From the NCBI GenBank assembly GCA_035578175.1, contig JAQMRL010000010.1:33100784-33164783 (forward strand): a stretch of DNA of 64,000 nucleotides. Direction: 5' to 3'. The translations under genes were made by a program, and so were the position numbers. The stretch is from Catonia carolina (taxonomy: Eukaryota > Arthropoda > Insecta > Hemiptera > Achilidae). This document shows, in pieces, positions 49,629 to 64,000 of this stretch (within the stretch, counting starts at the first letter, position 1; each line of letters starts with the position of its first letter). The notes under the pieces were generated by a model. The model did not search any database, had not been told where the DNA came from, and saw nothing but the letters and a program-made list of their open reading frames with translations.

Positions 49629-50564
49629 ACGGGTGATTCAAAAAGGGCGCCGGTTTTTAAACGGCTGGTAAATATTTGTTTATCGGTTGGCAACATTGTT
49701 AGACCTCATTTCTATTTCGGAGAACATTCCGATTGACGATTCAGTTGTAGTTTCTCTTGTTCGCAGTGTAGTACTCTCGCAGTCTGTGTCTAACCATGGA
49801 GAAGTTTACTATTGCACAACGAGTGTTAATCGTCAAAACATTTTACCAGAGTGGAGAGAGTTATGCGGCTACTGTCAGGCGATTTCGCGGTACTCTGGGA
49901 CGTAATGAAGCACCGAATGAATCAACAGTTCGCAGGCTCATGAAAAAGTTTTTTGAGACGGGTTCAACAGTCGACCTTAAAAGTTCTGGACGTCGTCGTT
50001 CTGGCCGAACTGAGCAGAACGTTGCGTTGGTTCGTGACAGTGTGGCAGTTAGCCCAGCAAAATCAATACGTCGCCGTTCTCAACAATTGGGTTTACGATG
50101 TTCTTCTGTACGGAGAATTCTTCGGTACGATCTCCAATATCACCCGTATAAAATTCAGTTGACGCAACATTTGAAAGTGGCAGACCACCAGAAGAGACGA
50201 CAGTTTGTTGACTGGGTATTGAGAAAACGGCAGGATGATGACACCTTCGCAAACAAAATCATTTTCAGTGATGAGGCGCACTTCCACTTAAACGGTTTTG
50301 TTAATAAACAGAACTGCCGTATGTGGGGTTTAATTCGACGGGTTGTTGGGCAAATGGAAGTCGAAACTTGTCGTGCAGTAATATCCAATTTCATGGACAG
50401 AGTTGATGCGTGCCAGCGCAGTAGAGGAGGACACATGCATGACATCATTTTTCATACATGAAATCGGAAGGTAAGATGAACTTGATGTATTTATTTTCAG
50501 TTTTTCAATAAAATAAATCTGTTAATTTGATATATCAAAACCGGCGCTCTTTTTGAATCACCTA
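49629..50564 (+). mobile_element. Mariner-like element nested in family C
   Basis: TIRs GGTGATTCAAAAAGGGCGCC / GGCGCTCTTTTTGAATCACC. TA is duplicated at 49627-49628 and 50565-50566. Copy 1 of family C has an uninterrupted site (antisense of TTATACTATTACG), proving a TA target. The element is deleted to 936 bp. Confidence 0.8.
49796..50461 (+). pseudogene. Internally deleted mariner-like transposase
   Basis: A continuous 221-codon frame. Residues 1-60 are the first HTH (FTIAQRVLIVKTFYQ..., STVRRLMKKF), residues about 70-110 the second HTH, and the first catalytic Asp is in IIFSDEAHFHLNG (about residue 160). After NCRMWG the frame jumps directly to the C-terminal tail (AVISNFMDRVDACQRSRGGH), removing about 100 residues with the second and third catalytic acidic residues. 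The family is usually about 330-350 residues. It could bind its termini and perhaps inhibit an intact transposase, but cannot catalyse transposition. Confidence 0.8.
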
Positions 50565-54302: not shown

Positions 54303-54403
54303 AGTAGTGTATAAGGGGGGATACTGCGTTGACGCCATTTTGTTTTTTGTGTTAAGAGTTGGGAATCTGTCTTGAGTGTTAGGCCACGCCCCTGGCCACG
54401 CCT

Positions 54404-55317
54404 TCGACCAATCAGGGCGCTCCGCCCGGATCACGTGATGCGCATGCGCCGAGCGGGCAGAGTCCCGAGGCCCGAGGCCCGAGTCCCGAGGCCCCGTGCT
54501 TCCTGCGTTGACGCCATCTTGTGTTAAGAGATTGTCATCTGTCTTGAGTGTTAAAGCCGCCCTCGACCAATCAGAGCACAGCGCCCGCCCGGGGGGAGGG
54601 GGGCTGTCTGACCGCACTCACCCGCGGGTGGGGGTCAACGCAGAGTTCTTCCTGCATCGCCGCCGGTGCCAAGCCCTCGACCAATCAGAGCACAGCGTCC
54701 GGAGGGGAGGGAGGTGACCCACCCGTGGGAGGGGGGTGGTGGGGTCGTCTGTCTCGAACGGGGGGGGGGCCACGCCTTCGACCAATCAGGGCGCTCCAGC
54801 CGGATCACGTGGCGCCCGGTGGAGGGGAGGGAGGTGACCCACCCGCGGGAGGGGGGTGGTCGTCGCGTCTCGAACGGGGGGACCGCGCCTTCGACCAATC
54901 GGGGCGCTCCAGCCGGATCACGTGATGCGCGCGCGCCGGGCGGGCAGAGTCCCGAGGCCCGAGGCCCGAGTCCCGAGGCCCCGCGCTTCCTGCGTTGACG
55001 CCATCTTGTGTTAAGAGATTGTCATCTGTCTTGAGTGTTAAAGCCGCCCTCGACCAATCAGAGCACAGCGCCCGCCCGGGGGGAGGGGGGCTGTCTGACC
55101 GCACTCACCCGCGGGAGGGGGTCAACGCAGAGTTCTTCCTGCATCGCCGCCGGTGCCAAGCCCTCGACCAATCAGAGCACAGCGTCCGGAGGGGAGGGAG
55201 GTGACCCACCCGTGGGAGGGGGGTGGTGGGGTCGTCTGTCTCGAACGGGGGGGGGGCCACGCCTTCGACCAATCAGGGCGCTCCAGCCGGATCACGTGGC
55301 GCCCGGTGGAGGGGAGG
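54404..55317 (+). repeat. Tandem duplication, period 487 bp
   Basis: The sequence from 54404 repeats with a 487-bp offset (for example GGCAGAGTCCCGAGGCCC at 54456 and 54943; TTCCTGCGTTGACG at 54500 and 54987). Copies are nearly identical, with isolated changes such as CCCGTGC/CCCGCGC. Unit 2 is cut at 55317. This implies recent duplication or homogenisation. Confidence 0.85.
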
Positions 55318-55738
55318 GCCACTGCCATCTTGTTTTTTGTGTTGAGAGTTGGGAATGAGCGCATCTGTCTTGAGGCCACGCCCTCGACCAATCAGAGCAC
55401 AGCACCTGGAGGGGGGAGGGGGGGGGAACGACGTCATCTGTCTTGAGGCCACGCCCTCGACCAATCAGAGCACAGCGTCTGGAGGGGGGGATTCTGCGCT
55501 AGCGCAGAGTTTGTGTCATCTGCGTCGAGTTGGGAGCCAAGCCCTCGACCAATCAGAGCCCTCACCCGCGGGAGGGGGGGGTCTACGCGGCGCGCGCCGG
55601 TCTGGGCTGAGTCCCCATGGGGTGACCTACTGCATCGCCGCCATCCTGTTTAGAGAGATTTGGGGGATTGACGTCATCTGTCTCGAGTGGGGTAGACCAC
55701 GCCTTCGACCAATCAGGATGCACCGCCCGGATCACATG

Positions 55739-55914
55739 AGTTTGTTCGACCAATCAGGGTACACCGTCATCGCTACGCCAGAGGGGGGGGGGTTCCCGCA
55801 CGCGCGATCGCATTAAGTATCATGAGTTTGTTCGACCAATCAGGGTACACCGTCATCGCTACGCCAGAGGGGGGGTTCCCGCGCGCGCCGCCGCGCGATC
55901 GTATTAAGTATCAT
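55739..55914 (+). repeat. Direct repeat of about 86 bp just upstream of the first gene
   Basis: GAGTTTGTTCGACCAATCAG ... ATTAAGTATCAT occurs at 55739-55822 and 55825-55914. A third partial unit (55926-55950) precedes the 55994 gene. Each unit has one CCAAT box and a G-run. Confidence 0.8.
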
Positions 55915-55993
55915 CAGATCACGTGAGTTTGTTGACCAATCAGGGTGGTACGCTCGCGTTGACTGTCCAACAACAAGATTTAGTGCTCTTCGC

Positions 55994-56323
55994 ATGAAAT
56001 TAGTAACACTACAGTCTAATATGTATGAACCGGACACTTTAAAACTCAAATCGTGGTGTGCGGTGATAAATATGCTGCTTAGTCACAGCTATACGGGTCT
56101 GGACCAGTATGAAAATAGATTCTTGGTACGGTTGTCGATGATTGACGTGAACCATGTGGGACTATATGGTGTTAGTGGATTTAAAAAGATGACTGTAAAA
56201 TATTACAATATTAACTATCTTATAAATCATATAGCGTGGCCTTTTGAATATAAAACCATTAGGAGAGTGTTCACGCTAGAAAAGGACGCTCAAAAATTTA
56301 TAGAAGACAGCGTAAAAATATAG
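55994..56323 (+). CDS. Hypothetical 109-aa element protein
   Basis: First gene after the GC-rich terminal block; ATG 55994, stop at 56321-56323. I recognise no family. The protein is soluble-looking and mixed in charge, with no signal peptide, membrane segment or repeat. It contains one Cys and a Tyr/Asn-rich middle (VKYYNINYLINHIAWPF). Codons are less GC-rich than the polymerase. The promoter side is well formed: a CCAAT box and E-box within 75 bp and no TATA. It is convergent with the RING gene and followed within 30 bp by a long GT tract. Its position between a promoter array and other genes supports it being real. Confidence 0.55.
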   Translation: MKLVTLQSNMYEPDTLKLKSWCAVINMLLSHSYTGLDQYENRFLVRLSMIDVNHVGLYGVSGFKKMTVKYYNINYLINHIAWPFEYKTIRRVFTLEKDAQKFIEDSVKI

Positions 56324-56348
56324 TTTTTGTAAAATCGCCAATCTATTG

Positions 56349-56457
<109 letters not shown>

Positions 56458-56650
56458 TGGGAAAAGTCTGTATTCCTCATCGTGTTTATGCACACAAACA
56501 CTGCCGTCACCGCTTTTCACAGACTTCGGACTGTCCGCCCCCGAGAAAAAAATACCTACATACGCACACACGCGAGCGAGTGTACGGATGCAAATAGATC
56601 TTCCTGATAGAACAGGTGTGTTTACAGTGTTTGTGTGCGTCTGTAAAGTG
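56458..56650 (-). repeat. Inverted gene-end cassette, copy 1 (downstream of the RING gene)
   Basis: About 190 bp homologous, in reverse orientation, to 63785-63985 (roughly 70 percent by eye; shared blocks include GCCGTCACC, CTTCGGAC, ACATACGC, ACGGATGC and GTGTTTGTGTG). In both places it lies just after a gene stop and its stem-loop(s), in the same relation to the direction of transcription. Confidence 0.7.
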
Positions 56651-56681
56651 TTTCGGTAATGTTGTTTGTGTTGGTGTGTTG

Positions 56682-56697
56682 AGTCCTGAAAAGGACT
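56682..56697 (-). terminator. Histone-type stem-loop downstream of the RING gene
   Basis: The minus strand reads AGTCCTTTTCAGGACT: perfect 6-bp stem, TTTC loop, 25 nt after the RING stop codon and preceded by an A-rich run. The second stem pair is G-C and the loop is pyrimidine UUUC, as SLBP requires. The downstream strand (CAACACACC) is not strongly purine-rich, so a U7 site is not obvious. Confidence 0.6.
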
Positions 56698-56722
56698 ATT
56701 TTTTTTTACCTTCCATCCGCAT

Positions 56723-58247
56723 CTACCGCCGCCTCGCGGATATGTACTGCCTACACAACGCGCAGAATACGGTCCTGAATGCACATGCATGACAAAACCT
56801 ATGGTGGCAGGGACATACCACCGTGTCCGTCCTCCGGTCCATGCATATGCAACAGACTTCATTGTGTGGAGTAGGCGGCTGCTGCTGCGGCTGCTGCAGT
56901 GGTGGAGAAGGCGACACCTGTGATGATGGTATCACCTGAATTTAAACAAAAAAATAACAAATTAGTCTTGCGGAAGAAACTATACTTGTAAGTCGTTAGG
57001 AATTTGAGCTAATGTATCACCTCGTCAGACGGACCCGGCTCGATCCTCGAAGGTGTCTCACGTCCCTCGACCGATGTCACCAACCTACCAGCGAGCGCCC
57101 GTTCACGGGCTTGCGCCCGCATCTGGGCGAGGACAATGCTCCCTTCCGCATTCGAAGACGTTCGTCGAGGGAGGTCAATGCTCTCTGCTGATCTCCAAGT
57201 TCCACTGTTCCGGACCTGACGTAAAAAACAAAAAAATATATCAAATTAGTCTTGCGGAAGAAAATTATATTTGTGAGACATTAGGAATTTGAGTTAATGT
57301 ATCACCTCGTCAGACGGACCCGGCTCGATTCTCGAAGGCGTAATATCCTCACGACCGCTACCCTCGGGTACCGGGAACAAGGCTCTGGGTCGACGAAGGG
57401 GGTAGGGCCCAGGCCTTCCATCACCCTCAACCGTAGACGACCGTCTATGGCCCAGGTAAATCCTTCGTAACGCCCTGCGGGTTCCGCTGTCCTGGTCCGA
57501 TGCAGGACGCAAAGAAGGAGGTGTTATAACAGTTGCACTGCGTTCTTCCGCACCATCGACGGTCGCAGCAATCTGTTCATCTTCTTCTGGTTCAACCGTC
57601 GCAGAAACGGTCGGTTCATCATTTCCTTCTTCTTCTGGCCCTTCTGCATTACTATAATCATCATCCGAGTCATCCTCACCCAAGGTGGTGCGGGTGTGAG
57701 AATAACCTGTAACATTAAGTACCTTCGTCAAAATTTTCTGTCACGTAACTCATTTTAGATTAAGAACAAAAATAAATATCAAATTCAGTGTATATGATTC
57801 AATCAAAAAAAAAGAAATTTAGTTACCTGGCCATGCATCACGTCGTTCCTCAATCATCCGGATCCGACGAACAATCTCGTCGATGTCCTCATCGTCCTCT
57901 TGAGTCGCCGCTATGTGAGCGTTGAAGGACGTTGTTAACAATAGAGGTGAACAACTCCGCAGGGCCCTTTCATTGTCTACGTCCTCAATAATCCGAACCT
58001 CTAAAAGTGCGGTCGTCCCCGCCCACCTAGGCGTCCTTACGAACGATTCGTAACGAGTATTGTCAACGTCGTACCGATCCGTGTTCCTCGACTGCATGAA
58101 AATTCGCGTGTAATTGTTCATGATGTAGACTAATGCAAACAATCGTTCTAACAGATTAGCGCGGACTTGTTCAAGAAACGGGAATGGCGTTTTATTATAT
58201 ACTTGAATACCAACACATGCTCGCCTTATACACACACACACACACAT
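56723..58247 (-). CDS. Spliced RING-finger (C3HC4) protein, four exons
   Basis: Exons on the minus strand: exon 1 from at most 58247 to 57827, then 57706-57306, 57215-57021 and 56935-56723. Donors CAG|GTAACT, GAG|GTGATA, GAG|GTGATA; acceptors TTACAG, CGTCAG, TTCAG. Phases 1, 0 and 0 join without a stop. Exon 1 encodes a conserved-looking, unrecognised domain; exon 2 has a very acidic stretch (GEDDSDDDYSNAEGPEEEG); exon 4 has a Pro/Gln linker and a C-terminal RING (CCIC...CPCHHRFCHAC...CALC) spaced as C-x2-C-x11-C-x-H-x2-C-x2-C-x6-C-x2-C, as in IAP-type E3 ligases. Likely a ubiquitin ligase; no BIR domain is visible. The start is uncertain: ATG 58247 lies in repeat/microsatellite sequence, and an internal Met near 58121 or an upstream exon is possible. 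Confidence 0.7.
56936..57340 (-). repeat. Tandem exon-intron duplication inside the RING gene
   Basis: Intron 3 (56936-57020) and intron 2 (57216-57305) are homologous (both contain CGCAAGACTAATTTG and start GTGATACATTA). Exon 3 and the second half of exon 2 both encode a segment from SGT(R/W)R to an identical PSRIEPGPSDE ending at the donor. A unit of about 285 bp was duplicated in tandem with reading phase kept. Confidence 0.8.
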
Positions 58248-59210
58248 GACAATTTGATTAAGCAAAACTAATACCCACCAGGTGTTCGAGTACAGTTAAC
58301 AAGCAACCGCATCTGGAGTTTGAAGAAAAAAACCTTGTAATCGATTCATAGGCAAGCGAGTGGTTAGGAATGTCGTTTCTATACACGCCCCACACGATTA
58401 CCCACCATCTGGTCTTTGTCTAATAAGCATCTGCAGGACGGGTGGTGGGAATACCGTTCACTTACCAACACATGCTCACTACCCGCATGACAATTTGATT
58501 AATAGCCACCATCTGGTGTTCGACTATAGTTATAAAGTAACAAGCATCTGCACACTGTTTTCTTCTATACACGCCCACATGACAATTTGATTAAATGTGA
58601 CAGTTGTGACTAATAGCCACCATCTGGTGTTCGACTTTAGTTATAACTTAACAAGCATCTGCATCCGGTATAAAATTACACCTGCCCTCACAATCTACTA
58701 TCCACCATGTGGTATGAAAATAATTTTTTTATCTTAAGAGTTGCATCATAGTCCCCTTCCGCACCTCCTGCTGAGCGCATCTGTTGGACGCTCACACGAC
58801 AGTTTCATTAATTGTGACAGTTGTGATTAATAGCCACCATCTGGTGTTCGACTATAGTTACAAATTAACAAGCATCTGCATCCTGTATAAATATACACCC
58901 GCCTTTACAATCCACTAAATATATCCACTATGTGATATGAAAAAGTTGCATCATATATGTAAATCCCCTTCCCACACCTCCTGCTGTGCACATCTGTTGG
59001 ACGCCTACACGTCAGTTTGATTAATTGTGACAGTTGTAATTAATAGCCTGGTGTTCGACTATAGTTAACAAGCACCCGCTCTCATAATTTACTAAAAATA
59101 TCCCACTATGTGGTATGAAAATAATTTTTTTATGTTAAAAGTTGAATCATATATGAAAATCGTATTATAAATCCCCCTTCCGCACCTCCTGCTGAGTGCA
59201 TCTATTCATA
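58225..59210. promoter_or_regulatory. Divergent intergenic region of about 200-bp tandem repeats
   Basis: Between the RING gene (-) and polymerase (+). Three long units start near 58569, 58793 and 59007, with shorter ones from 58225, 58376 and 58487. Shared blocks include TTTGATTAATTGTGACAGTT, a palindrome CACCATCTGGTG, GTTCGACTATAGTTA and CACCTCCTGCTG. The last unit carries the presumed polymerase promoter. Repeats could be promoter copies, enhancer modules or origin iterons. Confidence 0.65.
59166..59172 (+). promoter_or_regulatory. TATA box of the polymerase gene
   Basis: TATAAAT, about 30 bp before a TGCATC start-like sequence near 59198 and 96 bp before ATG 59262. The equivalent positions of the upstream repeat units are degenerate (ATGTAAAT or missing), so only the last copy looks complete. 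Confidence 0.5.
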
Positions 59211-59261
59211 CCGCTCTACGCATTCGTCAAGAGAGGTAGTGTGTTACTTTCATCTCCAACA

Positions 59262-62200
59262 ATGTCTACTGTACCAGAAATTGTTCGTGCCATTGAAGAC
59301 ATCATGGTCCATTTACGATGGAACATCGAAGAGCACGAGGAGAACGACGTAAAGCTGATTTTGTTTCGATACAAGTACCCCATTCTGTTTAACATCTTGG
59401 AAGAAGGACTTCGCTTTCACGGCAACGTAAAGTGGTACGTTGCGGTCAAAGTACAAATGCAGAAAGTTGTACTTATGGAAGAGGGTGAAGACGAGTGGAC
59501 CGAATTGGATACCGTTTTTCATGGAAAGACCAAAACATCAGTCAACGTAGATCAGAATCTTGAAGGTGTGACTGAGCAGTATCTGGAATCCATCGATAAG
59601 ATCGTCAACAGCTTGGAGCAGTACCTGAAGAACGGATCGGGATGGACGGTGAAGAAGATAAAAGAAGTTGACCTTCACATCGTCCGGTACCGTCCACTCC
59701 ACGGGGCGGCGAGTTCTTACATCGAACTTCCGAAAAAACTTGCCGTTAAAAAGGCCATTATCAACGTTAAGAATTACGACGACGAGAAGTGTTTCCTGTG
59801 GTCGATTCTAGCCTTCTTTCACGACCAGCCTGGAAATATGTATCAGGTCTCGTGGTATCGTAAATATGAAGATACTATAAAGATGGATGGGATCATTTAT
59901 CCTGTCAAACTACACGATATCGACTGGTTTGAGAGGATGAATGATTCCATCGGAATCAACGTGCTGTCGTACGACAAAGACGAAGACGTCGTGTATCCAG
60001 TCCGAATAACGAAAAACCGTCAGCGTGCACACATCATTCAGCTGTTATTGCTGACCGGTGAGAAGGAGGGTCAACTGCATTACACCCTGATCAACACGAA
60101 ACCGGGGAAGAACGGATTGTCTCGTCTTCTCAGCGGCTTGTCAAAACATCGAACCGCTGTCCACTACTGTCCGTTTTGTTTGCACAGATTCTCTTCGTCT
60201 AATCCACAAATCGCCTTACGCAACAGAGACGAGCACATCAAACTTTGCGAAACACACGGTACGCAGCGGATCGAGCTTCCAAAACCGGGAGACGAGAGGT
60301 CATCGGTGATGCGATTTCGCAATTACTCGTGGACTCTGCGAGCGCCTTTCACCGTGTACGCCGATACAGAATCGTTTGTCGTACCGACTGCGTCGGCTGA
60401 ACCGAACCCTCAGCAAAGCGGTATCGACAACGAGCATCTGAAGTCACCGCACACGTTTGCCTACACCGAGAAATTAGCAGTACACACACCATCCGGGTAC
60501 TCGTATGTGATAGTCGACGAAAACGGTGACATAGAAGATGGACCGGTCGTTGTCAGAGCTACCGCCGGCGTGGACGTTATCGAACAAATGATCGATGATT
60601 TGTTACGTAAAGGAAAGGAACTCAAGGAGCGGATGATGAACATTATCCCGATGCGGCTGACGTGGGAGGAAGAAGCCGAATTTGAAACGACCATCAACTG
60701 TATGTTATGCGATACGTCGATGGGTGACGATCGGGTCAGACATCATTCCCACACATCTGGGAAATTTTTGGGACCGGCTCACAACCGTTGCAACCTGAAC
60801 GCCAAGCGATGTCTCCACATACCCGTATTTTTTCACAACCTCCGCGGGTATGATTCACATCATATAGTTCAATCGTTGGGCAAGTTCAAGAAAGAGGAGG
60901 TGAAGGTTATCGCCAACAACAGCGAAAGATTCTCGAGCATACAGTTGGGACCGTTGCGATTTCTCGACTCACTCCAATTTCTGAACGCTTCGTTGGACAC
61001 TTTAGTGAAAAACTTGGTCGATGGCTGTGACACCGACACGGTTAAGGACGAGACGTTCAAACGTACAACCACCGTTTACGGCCAACGTCGAGACCTAATG
61101 TTACGTAAAGGTGTGTTCCCGTACGAGTATTCGACCGACATCGAAAAATTCCAGTATCGTCAGCTACCACCAAAGTCTGCATTCTTTAGCACTTTACACC
61201 GTGCCGGCATAACCGACGAAGACTACGAACACGCGAAATCTGTATGGGCCGCTTTTAACATCGATACGTTTGGCGACTATCACGACCTGTATCTCCAGAC
61301 CGACGTACTGCTGCTAGCCGATGTCTTTGAAAATTTTCGAGATCTCAGCATGCGCTACTACAATCTTGACCCGTGCCATTTCTTTTCCACTCCACATTTG
61401 GGATGGTACGCTCTGCTTAAGATGACTAAAATCGATCTACATCTTTTAACGGACATCGACATGCACTTGTTCATCGAGCGAGGAACGCGGGGTGGAGTGG
61501 CCATGATCTCGAATCGATATGCGAAGGCGAATAACCCGTCTCTTCCGACCCAATACGATCCATCGCAACCGACAACTTGGATACAGTACTACGACTGTAC
61601 CAATCTCTACGGAACTGCGATGATGGAACCGATGCCCTACAAAGACTTTCGTTGGTTGACAGAAGAAGAAATCAGAAGCTTTGAATGGCAGAATGTGGAC
61701 GTGGACAATGAGACGGGATATATACTCGAGGTGGATCTAGAATATCCTACGGATCTACACGACCTACATAACGATTACCCGCTAGCACCAGAACGCAAGA
61801 AACCGCCAACCGACACCAGCAAAACACAAAAACTGTTAACCACCTTAGACGATAGAGAGAAATACGTCCTGCATTACCGCAACCTACAGCAGTACGTAAA
61901 ATACGGAATGAAGCTGAAGAAGATCCATCGCGCACTCGCGTTTAAACAGAAAAGGTGGATGCAGTCCTACATTGATTTCAACACTCAGCGTAGGAAGGAG
62001 GCGAAAAACAAATTTGAGACAGATTTTTTTAAACTCATGATAAACGCAGTGTACGGAAAGAGTTTAGAAAACGTGAGGAATCGGATCGACTTCCACCTGG
62101 TGATGGACCCTTCTAAATTGGACAGATTGATAGCGAAACCGCGATTAAAATCCTGGTTTCCATTTAACGAACGTGTGGCCGGTGTATCGTTAAAGAAGGC

Positions 62201-62879
62201 CGTCATCAAATTGAACAAACCGATTTACGTAGGCTTCAGTGTTCTGGACATAAGCAAACACGTAATGTACGACTTCCATTACGGATACTCCAAAGCCCGT
62301 TACGGAGAAAAAATAAAATTGCTTATGACAGATACCGACAGCCTCCTCTATCAGATTCAGACGGACAATATCTACGACGATATGATGAACGACCTCGACC
62401 GGTTCGACACGTCAGAATACCCCGTTGACCACCAGTGCTTCAGTCTCGTCAATAAGAAAAAGTTGGGTACGTTTAAGGATGAAATGCATGGACGAGCGAT
62501 AAGGGAATTTGTCGGCTTGCGAGCGAAAATGTACTCTTTGCTGTTGCAAGACAAGAAGGAAAAGAAGGTGGCAAAAGGCGTGGCGCGACTCTCTATTAAA
62601 GAAGACCTACGACACGAGCAGTATAAGAATTGCTTGCAAGAGTTAACAAAAGTTTATACATCCAACCACAATATACGCAGCTTTCGACACACGATCTACA
62701 CGCTCAAGCAACAAAAGCTATCGCTATCATCGTTAGACGACAAGCGTTACCTTCTCCTCAATTCGTACGACACACTGGCACACGGACATCGGCGGATTAA
62801 AGAGATAGAAAAGGAAGATGAGAAGGAAGTGGTGGCGGAGGAGGAGGAAGAGGAGGAAAAAATGGAAATTGTCCAGTAG
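59262..62879 (+). CDS. Protein-primed-type family B DNA polymerase, 1205 aa
   Basis: Replicative polymerase of the DNA_pol_B_2 class found in Polintons, adintoviruses and related elements. Start chosen at ATG 59262 (CCAACAATGT context); the frame continues upstream only without an ATG. Visible in order: an N-terminal conserved block (about residues 152-190, KAIINVKNYDDEKCFLW); a Cys/His cluster (about 300-335, YCPFCLHRF); Exo I YADTES (366-371); an HNH/endonuclease VII-like motif (C480, C483, RHHSHTSGKF, NRCNLN about 510); Exo II NLRGYD (526-531); Exo III YLQTD (677-681); motif A DCTNLYG (778-784); motif B KLMINAVYG (924-932); motif C TDTDS (1023-1027). All catalytic residues are present and there is no stop or frameshift. 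A Glu-rich tail of about 25 residues is unusual. Divergent from the RING gene; a small gene follows 13 bp later. Confidence 0.92.
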   Translation: MSTVPEIVRAIEDIMVHLRWNIEEHEENDVKLILFRYKYPILFNILEEGLRFHGNVKWYVAVKVQMQKVVLMEEGEDEWTELDTVFHGKTKTSVNVDQNLEGVTEQYLESIDKIVNSLEQYLKNGSGWTVKKIKEVDLHIVRYRPLHGAASSYIELPKKLAVKKAIINVKNYDDEKCFLWSILAFFHDQPGNMYQVSWYRKYEDTIKMDGIIYPVKLHDIDWFERMNDSIGINVLSYDKDEDVVYPVRITKNRQRAHIIQLLLLTGEKEGQLHYTLINTKPGKNGLSRLLSGLSKHRTAVHYCPFCLHRFSSSNPQIALRNRDEHIKLCETHGTQRIELPKPGDERSSVMRFRNYSWTLRAPFTVYADTESFVVPTASAEPNPQQSGIDNEHLKSPHTFAYTEKLAVHTPSGYSYVIVDENGDIEDGPVVVRATAGVDVIEQMIDDLLRKGKELKERMMNIIPMRLTWEEEAEFETTINCMLCDTSMGDDRVRHHSHTSGKFLGPAHNRCNLNAKRCLHIPVFFHNLRGYDSHHIVQSLGKFKKEEVKVIANNSERFSSIQLGPLRFLDSLQFLNASLDTLVKNLVDGCDTDTVKDETFKRTTTVYGQRRDLMLRKGVFPYEYSTDIEKFQYRQLPPKSAFFSTLHRAGITDEDYEHAKSVWAAFNIDTFGDYHDLYLQTDVLLLADVFENFRDLSMRYYNLDPCHFFSTPHLGWYALLKMTKIDLHLLTDIDMHLFIERGTRGGVAMISNRYAKANNPSLPTQYDPSQPTTWIQYYDCTNLYGTAMMEPMPYKDFRWLTEEEIRSFEWQNVDVDNETGYILEVDLEYPTDLHDLHNDYPLAPERKKPPTDTSKTQKLLTTLDDREKYVLHYRNLQQYVKYGMKLKKIHRALAFKQKRWMQSYIDFNTQRRKEAKNKFETDFFKLMINAVYGKSLENVRNRIDFHLVMDPSKLDRLIAKPRLKSWFPFNERVAGVSLKKAVIKLNKPIYVGFSVLDISKHVMYDFHYGYSKARYGEKIKLLMTDTDSLLYQIQTDNIYDDMMNDLDRFDTSEYPVDHQCFSLVNKKKLGTFKDEMHGRAIREFVGLRAKMYSLLLQDKKEKKVAKGVARLSIKEDLRHEQYKNCLQELTKVYTSNHNIRSFRHTIYTLKQQKLSLSSLDDKRYLLLNSYDTLAHGHRRIKEIEKEDEKEVVAEEEEEEEKMEIVQ

Positions 62880-62892
62880 ATGTTGAAATTCA

Positions 62893-63174
62893 ATGATGGA
62901 TGTTGACATATCGTCTCCAGTATGGATAATAACATTCCGGCCAGATGGGAAGATTAACTCGGTTAGACATTTAATGAAAATATTAACTAATTTTTTCCCG
63001 CAAGCTGTGATTTCATTAACAAGAATGAAAAGATTCAGTGTTGTTGTTCAAGCAAATTACAATGTGGTTTTTTCGGAAATTGTAAATACGTTAAATGAAT
63101 GGAAACACGAATTAGAATTTGATACTATTGATGGGCAGTGTAGAAATATTAAGTGGAATCACAAGCGTGTTTGA
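62893..63174 (+). CDS. Hypothetical 93-aa element protein
   Basis: ATG 62893 lies 13 bp after the polymerase stop, so it may be expressed from the same transcript or from its own promoter inside the polymerase gene. No family is recognised. The sequence suggests alternating strands and helices (SPVWIITFRPDGK, then FSVVVQANYNVVFSEIV), compact like a small alpha/beta domain, with no Cys pairs or membrane segment. It is AT-richer than its neighbour. No stem-loop follows it. Confidence 0.55.
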   Translation: MMDVDISSPVWIITFRPDGKINSVRHLMKILTNFFPQAVISLTRMKRFSVVVQANYNVVFSEIVNTLNEWKHELEFDTIDGQCRNIKWNHKRV

Positions 63175-63267
63175 TTCAACCTTGACTGTTTCCTGTTACT
63201 CGCTTAAGTTTGTATTCGTTAAACGTGTTGGATGGTGTGATAGAGGTAGCGGTGGGGGGAGTATAGC

Positions 63268-63275
63268 TATATAAA
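63268..63275 (+). promoter_or_regulatory. TATA box of the OB-fold-like gene
   Basis: TATATAAA, with a plausible start (GCATTATT, about 63298) 30 bp downstream and ATG at 63333. The spacing is textbook for a TATA promoter. Confidence 0.65.
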
Positions 63276-63332
63276 CGCTCGTTCAGCTTTCATCGGGGCA
63301 TTATTGAGGTAGAATCAACAGAAGCTATCATC

Positions 63333-63701
63333 ATGGAACAACAAACAGCATCATCATCATCATCATCTCTAATCGATCAATTCAACGCTTTATCGTCAGT
63401 GGACTTTCCAGAAACAAAGAAAGCGTCAGAGCTGGTAGAAGGCAAAACATACCCGGTGGTCCGCATGTATATTGCTAACACAAAATTCGGCAAGAGCGTG
63501 GTGGCGGTTTTGAAAGACGATGAAAACGAGGAATTTACAATTTTCCTTCCGAAGCGCTTACAGAAATTGCTTTGCGGATGGGATTTGAATGAATTTGAAG
63601 CGAGACCGTACGCGCTGACATTCTCCGAAATTTCTAGAAGAACACCTACAGTTGTGCTAAGTCCAAGAATCGAAGCAGTACATGAAGAAGAAAACAAATA
63701 G
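63333..63701 (+). CDS. Small OB-fold-like nucleic-acid-binding protein, 122 aa
   Basis: ATG 63333 in CATCATGG context. Residues 6-13 are a Ser run from TCA repeats. Residues about 30-105 resemble small proteins often seen in insects alongside this polymerase class: GKTYPVVRMYIANTKFGKSV, then EEFTIFLPKRLQKLL. Alternating beta strands and lack of catalytic motifs suggest an OB fold, possibly a single-strand DNA-binding partner of the polymerase. That role is inference. The stop overlaps the first of two histone-type stem-loops. Confidence 0.65.
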   Translation: MEQQTASSSSSSLIDQFNALSSVDFPETKKASELVEGKTYPVVRMYIANTKFGKSVVAVLKDDENEEFTIFLPKRLQKLLCGWDLNEFEARPYALTFSEISRRTPTVVLSPRIEAVHEEENK

Positions 63702-63742
63702 TTCTTTTCAGAACTGCAGGAGAAACAGTTCTTTTCAGAACT
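63700..63742 (+). terminator. Two histone-type stem-loops after the OB-fold-like gene
   Basis: AGTTCTTTTCAGAACT at 63700-63715 (overlapping the TAG) and again at 63727-63742, separated by purine-rich GCAGGAGAAAC. Each has a perfect 6-bp stem and TTTC loop; the core CTTTTCAG is shared with the loops at 56682 and 24424 while outer stem pairs differ by compensated changes. Confidence 0.65.
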
Positions 63743-63779
63743 TTACACACACATACACCGACATAAATAACAACTAACT

Positions 63780-63780
<1 letters not shown>

Positions 63781-63811
<31 letters not shown>
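63781..63811. repeat. (AC)n microsatellite
   Basis: About 15 AC units at the start of the gene-end cassette. Confidence 0.9.
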
Positions 63812-63815
<4 letters not shown>

Positions 63816-63985
63816 CCGTAAACCCGCCTATCTCTATAAGATATGTCTATTCGCATCCGTGTACGCGTGCGTACGCGTATGTAAATATTCATATTCTTGG
63901 GGGTAGCATGTCCGAAGCCATGGAAAAAAGAGGTGACGGCGCTGTTTGTATACACACACACACTTGATCTTTTCCGCTCAATACT
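63785..63985 (+). repeat. Inverted gene-end cassette, copy 2 (downstream of the OB-fold-like gene)
   Basis: Reverse-complement homologue of 56458-56650. With copy 1 it brackets the RING, polymerase, 93-aa and OB-fold genes, so it could also be read as inverted repeats around a 7.5-kb module. Confidence 0.7.
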
Positions 63986-64000
63986 TGCAATAAGGTAGCC

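Follow-up and report, generated by a model that had tools for sequence, protein, structure and literature searches.

Do the gene blocks of an integrated virus-like element in an insect genome close with the type of RNA hairpin that is otherwise known from histone messages, and if so, what would read it? The question is raised by a stretch of 64,000 nucleotides (nt) from Catonia carolina (C2:33100784-33164783 in a genome of 1.47 Gb), here called the window. The window holds the left part of an element which, judged by its genes, is read as a Maverick/adintovirus-type provirus, and which continues into two stretches, L039 and L040, that adjoin the window beyond its right edge. Each of the five clear gene blocks of this element closes with a coding-strand hairpin of a 6-bp stem and a 4-nt loop (AGYYCTTTTNAGRRCT). 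We regard it as probable that these hairpins are selected histone-type RNA 3' elements that are read by the SLBP of the host.

Hairpins at the ends of the gene blocks

The five blocks are the RING gene (-), the unit PolB-95aa-OB (+), a BIR gene (-), a gene of 135 amino acids (aa) (+) and a structural/integrase array (-). The hairpins that lie in the window or reach into it are the following:

56682..56697, minus strand: RING hairpin AGTCCTTTTCAGGACT, starting 25 nt past the RING stop
63700..63715, plus strand: first OB hairpin AGTTCTTTTCAGAACT, overlapping the TAG stop by two bases
63727..63742, plus strand: second OB hairpin AGTTCTTTTCAGAACT, starting 25 nt past the OB stop
63997..64012, minus strand: BIR-gene hairpin AGCCCTTTTGAGGGCT, with 63997..64000 in the window and the rest in L039 (L009 6302-6317)

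Two further hairpins lie right of the window, at 64919 (+) and 65237 (-) in window coordinates. The distance from the stop to the start of the hairpin is 61 nt for the BIR gene, 4 nt for the 135-aa gene and 47 nt for the array. A preliminary description of this DNA had given the RING hairpin and the two OB hairpins with correct coordinates, strands and sequences; its set was incomplete, since the BIR hairpin and the two beyond the window were missing from it.

When 120 nt were taken per tail, the histone-type hairpin was present on the coding strand of all five block tails and on the opposite strand of none. Dinucleotide shuffles of the five tails (2,000 sets, 10,000 tails) did not yield it once. 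The pattern RGYYCTTYTNAGRRCY occurred 116 times in 41 of 52 element pieces (230,204 bases, from copies that overlap and are related and so are not independent), while four control patterns, namely the reversed pattern and those with a purine/pyrimidine swap at pair 3, at pair 4 or at both, had 0 occurrences in the same pieces. Perfect hairpins of 6 bp and 4 nt numbered 14 in window positions 56340-64000, L039 and L040 1-3400, in addition to the BIR hairpin, which is split between pieces. Among the 14 are five histone-type hairpins, all located behind stops; eight of the remaining nine lie inside listed open reading frames (ORFs) and one (63863) lies in a spacer. Between the array genes, neither the strict nor the relaxed search detected a histone hairpin, and these genes may therefore share one 3' end.

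Conservation was examined in an alignment (A2) of 30 rows of hand-picked hairpins from related sequences. Rows found with the main pattern carried no pairing requirement; rows from L041-L059 were taken from a listing of perfect hairpins and from a relaxed pattern demanding five of six pairs, a selection that in part favours the pairing percentage; the degenerate copies of L054 and L055 were excluded. All 180 cells were paired, one of them by U-G (shuffled mean 93.1%), with the 6-bp stem and 4-nt loop retained. Changes on both sides were observed in 17 cells (shuffled mean 4.6), at pair 3 in six sequences, at pair 4 in ten and at pair 1 in one. Pairs 2, 5 and 6 are invariant, and changes are found almost solely at the two Y-R pairs. 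At the homologous site behind the 135-aa gene, the copy studied here reads GAATAAAATC-AGTTCT/AGAACT, whereas a divergent copy reads GAATAAAATC-AGTCCT/AGGACT. Minus-unit modules with the same flanks carry AGTCCT/AGGACT in one of six cases and AGCCCT/AGGGCT in the other five. The difference between AGTCCT and AGTTCT had been described as compensated and as lying in the outer stem; the compensation holds, the placement does not, since the change is at the fourth stem pair.

The consensus of histone hairpins is GGYYCUUYUNAGRRCC. Apart from the outer pair, which is considered below, the element hairpins fit it, barring one ATTC and one TATT loop, both atypical and both from the divergent copy, and with free variation at the fourth base of the loop. 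Of 122 occurrences tallied, 121 have adenines at positions -4 and -3, and the first base 3' of the stem is an A in 21 of 30 rows. PMC10388802 gives the minimal SLBP site as two adenines 5' and one adenine 3' of the stem, and reports for the human complex a contact with the G of the second pair. This G is invariant in the element hairpins.

Scores against the Rfam family Histone3 (RF00032, gathering cut-off 34 bits) were 22.0 bits for the BIR hairpin (E 4.5e-4), 22.0 bits for that of the 135-aa gene (E 0.001), 21.3 bits for the array hairpin (E 0.0019), 15.1 bits for the RING hairpin (E 0.18) and 12.9 bits for the second OB hairpin (E 2.4), each E-value applying to the 201-451 bases searched. 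The divergent copy or copies at C1:11.37-11.38 Mb (OB 59% identical) yielded six Histone3 hairpins with 27.8, 27.3, 26.1, 23.5, 23.3 and 20.2 bits and E-values of 3.3e-5 to 0.022; Histone3 did not list the hairpins of RING and the 135-aa gene at this place, nor the two at the OB end. Hairpins of host histone genes reached 37.1 and 35.7 bits and are over the cut-off. Compared with these, the sub-cut-off scores of the element indicate a genuine family signal, though one that falls short of that in true histone genes.

The hairpins are a persistent feature of the lineage. An OB match was found at 29 of 30 PolB loci (the match in L035 is fragmented), with a hairpin after OB in 29 of 29. OB-end hairpins are doubled or tripled, and in four loci (L023, L024, L025 and L030) the OB gene is duplicated and the duplicate has hairpins of its own. 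Among 19 distant OB copies, ten have hairpins (43-82% identity) and nine do not (36-48% identity); the most divergent relatives that retain them are down to 43-45% identity of the OB protein. Orthologous elements without hairpins had been named in the preliminary description as speaking against its proposal; such copies exist among the distant ones and are absent from the PolB-linked OB loci. The nine copies indicate that the trait belongs to one lineage within the genome and not to all such elements. Single-query searches of viral contigs with PolB or capsid found no relatives. An alignment query found one distant PolB relative (L074, 36%), which had no hairpins in 13.6 of its 15.1 kb. Tandem hairpins in the viral contigs L072 and L073 were rejected as chance: the ORFs appear phage-like by eye and at least one stem is mispaired in each.

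Position and strand, sub-cut-off Histone3 scores, compensated changes, upstream adenines and persistence in divergent copies thus all support the histone-type identity that had been proposed for these hairpins.

Recognition by the host and competing explanations

Several observations weigh against this identity or against a host-type mode of action. All element hairpins are below the 34-bit cut-off (best 27.8; 22.0 in this copy), the first OB hairpin was unlisted by Histone3, and no match was listed when the entire 7.7 kb were searched with E up to 10. The outer pair is A-U, not the G-C of the consensus, in 29 of 30 rows. Further pair types in A2 show no excess (4 against 4.8 in shuffled rows), and the RNA folding of single hairpins is unremarkable in three of six cases (z -0.85, -0.98, -1.60). 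No hairpin follows within 160 nt of a candidate ORF at the left end (55826-56323, +), which has weak similarity to the last gene of the array (E 0.039); with this ORF counted, the score would be five of six blocks. The tail of the 135-aa gene has ATTAAA at 200 nt and AATAAA at 245 nt. The nine distant OB copies without hairpins belong here as well, as does the lack of a host-type downstream element: AGGTT occurs 15-18 nt after the hairpin in 5/5 distinct host histone contexts and 6/8 abundant-repeat contexts, and in 0/43 distinct element contexts (contexts with fewer than 40 nt downstream were dropped). Finally, genome-wide matches number 1,313 for AGYYCTTYTNAGRRCT and 78 for its reversed form, but 2,339 for the swapped control AGRRCTTYTNAGYYCT, the first 100 of which mostly read AGGGCTTCTYAGCCCT. 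As this control is apparently itself a common repeat, genome-wide counts do not discriminate, and counting as proof was dropped.

The host encodes SLBP (PF15247, three matches above the cut-off). According to PMC7026596, SLBP on the hairpin and the U7 snRNP on the downstream element act jointly. Given this joint action and the absence of AGGTT from all 43 element contexts, the sequence supports use of SLBP and not U7-type cleavage. Binding of the hairpins by SLBP is accordingly predicted with good confidence, and its use by the element is likely; that the mRNAs end without poly(A) has about an even chance, and the usual U7-type cleavage of element transcripts is doubtful. For the host U7 RNA, two sub-cut-off candidates were found, in which no stretch complementary to AGGTTTT was recognised by eye.

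In the proposed mechanism, transcripts would end just past the hairpin, and SLBP would stand in for the poly(A) tail in export, stability and translation. Expression would be favoured in SLBP-rich, dividing cells. Because the host downstream motif is missing, the usual U7 site of the host would be unused, and cleavage would be either independent of U7 or based on a different pairing. The part of the U7 site may be played by conserved sequences that adjoin the hairpins of the element. In the window, these spacers lie downstream of hairpins:

56455..56681, minus strand: spacer past the RING hairpin, common to the OB and 135-aa 3' ends (alignment A3)
63743..63985, plus strand: spacer past the OB hairpins, common to the RING and 135-aa 3' ends (alignment A3)

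The RING, OB and 135-aa ends have a spacer of roughly 170 nt in common. In the minus-unit modules, CTCCCGATGGGGATCGAC is located upstream in five of six rows (the sixth, a truncated row, differs by one change), and five of six have ACCTTATT downstream. These two sequences and the common spacer are candidates for the missing cleavage signal. Tentatively, we extend the proposal to an animal Maverick/adintovirus-type lineage that would have abandoned polyadenylation for its gene blocks in favour of SLBP-bound hairpin ends without the usual U7 site, with expression tied to host DNA replication.

The best-surviving alternative, though an unlikely one, is that the hairpin binds SLBP solely as a translation or stability element in longer transcripts that are polyadenylated and have their ends formed at another place. 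The missing host motif in 43/43 element contexts and the AATAAA 245 nt past the 135-aa stop are in line with it. However, neither AATAAA nor ATTAAA was found within 300 nt in the other four of the five block tails, nor within 250 nt of the OB end at any of the 29 loci; the hairpins lie directly at the stops, and converging neighbour blocks allow scant space for long 3' ends. Within 320 nt of the OB stop, one of these signals is present in 5/9 copies without hairpins and in 1/10 copies with hairpins.

Recognition by a viral system is improbable. In its favour, the element is of a DNA-virus type and its gene blocks close with hairpins, and hairpins of mimiviruses direct cleavage and polyadenylation by viral enzymes (PMC4402537). 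The same paper describes mimivirus hairpins as not conserved in sequence, whereas the element hairpins track the histone consensus and Histone3. Nor did Pfam identify a domain of RNase III or poly(A) polymerase in the element ORFs submitted, a subset of all ORFs in which several were unmatched.

A function of the palindromes as DNA, in recombination, cassette exchange between gene blocks or replication, has an equally slim chance. It would agree with hairpin and spacer forming repeated modules within one copy and with the duplicated OB genes that carry their own hairpins, but it leaves unexplained the strand bias (5/5 coding, 0 antisense), the histone-invariant loop and pairs, and the conserved A-rich 5' flank. 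Chance or spill-over from other hairpin-bearing repeats would suit a repeat-rich genome with 9,613 canonical and 2,339 swapped-control matches, but is hardly credible: the placement test (5/5 tails, none in shuffles) already contradicts it, the element hairpins have another outer pair and lack the flanks of the abundant repeat, and they persist in copies whose proteins diverge by more than 40%.

The element and other hairpin-bearing repeats

The genes and extent of the element within the window are as follows:

54303..64000, no strand assigned: Maverick/adintovirus-type element, left part, continuing beyond the window to about L040 4341; putative boundaries
56723..56941, minus strand: RING finger ORF (PF13920, E 3.5e-8; stop-to-stop coordinates)
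59196..62879, plus strand: PolB-like ORF of 1227 aa, with homologues of which some carry PF03175
63333..63701, plus strand: 122-aa ORF with a putative fold, labelled OB (OB-fold-like) in the preliminary description

Neither the PolB-like nor the 122-aa ORF has a Pfam match of its own. An inverted repeat of 665 bp (window 54303-54967 and L040 4341-3678, 99.4% identity) sets the length of the element at about 24 kb. L039 and L040 contain genes for a double-jelly-roll capsid protein (PF21738, E 4.4e-102), a PLA2-domain protein (PF08398, E 6.5e-15), a BIR protein (PF00653, E 6.4e-10), an rve integrase (PF00665, E 5e-11) and a matrixin (PF00413, E 4.4e-33). PolB (via homologues), capsid and integrase genes are thus present together with terminal inverted repeats; we provisionally take this gene set to be that of the Maverick/adintovirus group. 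Penton, adenain-type protease and FtsK-type ATPase are candidates by eye; Pfam matched none of L039:5224-5952, L039:5953-6363 and the L040:3-443 piece. Searches of PDB and PHROGs gave no useful match. From 1,117 candidates, 38 PolB copies in the genome were scored, 26 of them without a stop inside the match. Of the named PolB relatives, the nearest comes from Lycorma delicatula (61% identity over residues 380-1150). Histone H4 of the host starts with MTGRG, as insect H4 does, and the two observations together make an insect host probable.

The matrix-metalloproteinase-like gene inside the element (L040 1461-3371, -) combines matrixin and hemopexin domains. Two BIR (inhibitor of apoptosis) proteins, at L039 74-463 and 3138-3857 (-), accompany the RING gene in the element; the second is a weak sub-cut-off match. 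A transposase-like ORF with a DUF4817 helix-turn-helix is located at window 49796-50461 (+).

Hairpins also occur in other repeats of this genome. A repeat of about 650 bp (window ~24439 (-); L001-L008) carries the canonical GGYYCTTYTNAGRRCC hairpin, which has 9,613 genome-wide matches compared to 53 for the reversed pattern, counts that are for the whole genome and not for this repeat. Its ends are TGTCACCG...CGGTGACA in the copies inspected, and a TATAAAAA box is present in one copy seen in full. Based on these ends, the box and the AGGTT after the hairpin in 6/8 contexts, it looks like a non-autonomous transposon with a histone-type transcription unit. Paired AGTTCTTTTAAGAACT hairpins about 90 bp apart are found in L060 (291-306 and 382-397; C1:71490 and C1:71581), with similar spacing at several other listed places. 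Histone-type GGYCCTTCTCAGGRCC hairpins form apparent tandem arrays with a unit of about 123 bp (C1:19046352-19047966 and C1:11325638-11325899). There is another abundant hairpin with 2,339 places, of which the first 100 mostly show AGGGCTTCTTAGCCCT.

Comparison with known systems

A DNA virus with 3' ends of the histone kind, if real, would be a natural test of the hairpin features that SLBP needs, given its A-U outer pair and lack of a host-type downstream element. It would suggest how an integrated virus could time its expression to host replication, and RNA-seq with poly(A) selection would not capture its transcripts. No description of histone-type hairpins in such elements was found among the literature matches listed, in a search that left most subscription journals outside.

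With the 3' end of metazoan replication-dependent histone mRNAs (RF00032; SLBP, U7 snRNP), the element shares the 6-bp stem, the 4-nt loop, the invariant pairs 2, 5 and 6, the Y-R pairs 3 and 4, the A-rich 5' flank, the short distance to the stop and the coding strand. It differs in its A-U outer pair, the absence of the host downstream motif, the doubled or tripled OB-end hairpins, its Histone3 scores under the cut-off and the viral genes that take the place of histones. Mimivirus mRNAs likewise have palindromes at the transcript ends of a DNA virus, where those of the element are predicted to lie; in mimiviruses, however, the palindrome has no conserved sequence, it is a target of viral enzymes, and the mRNA receives a poly(A) tail (PMC4402537). 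Maverick/Polinton and adintovirus elements of animals have in common with this element the PolB-like gene, the double-jelly-roll capsid, the rve integrase, the PLA2 domain and the inverted repeats, whereas the histone-type hairpins at the ends of gene blocks are the feature of the element described here.

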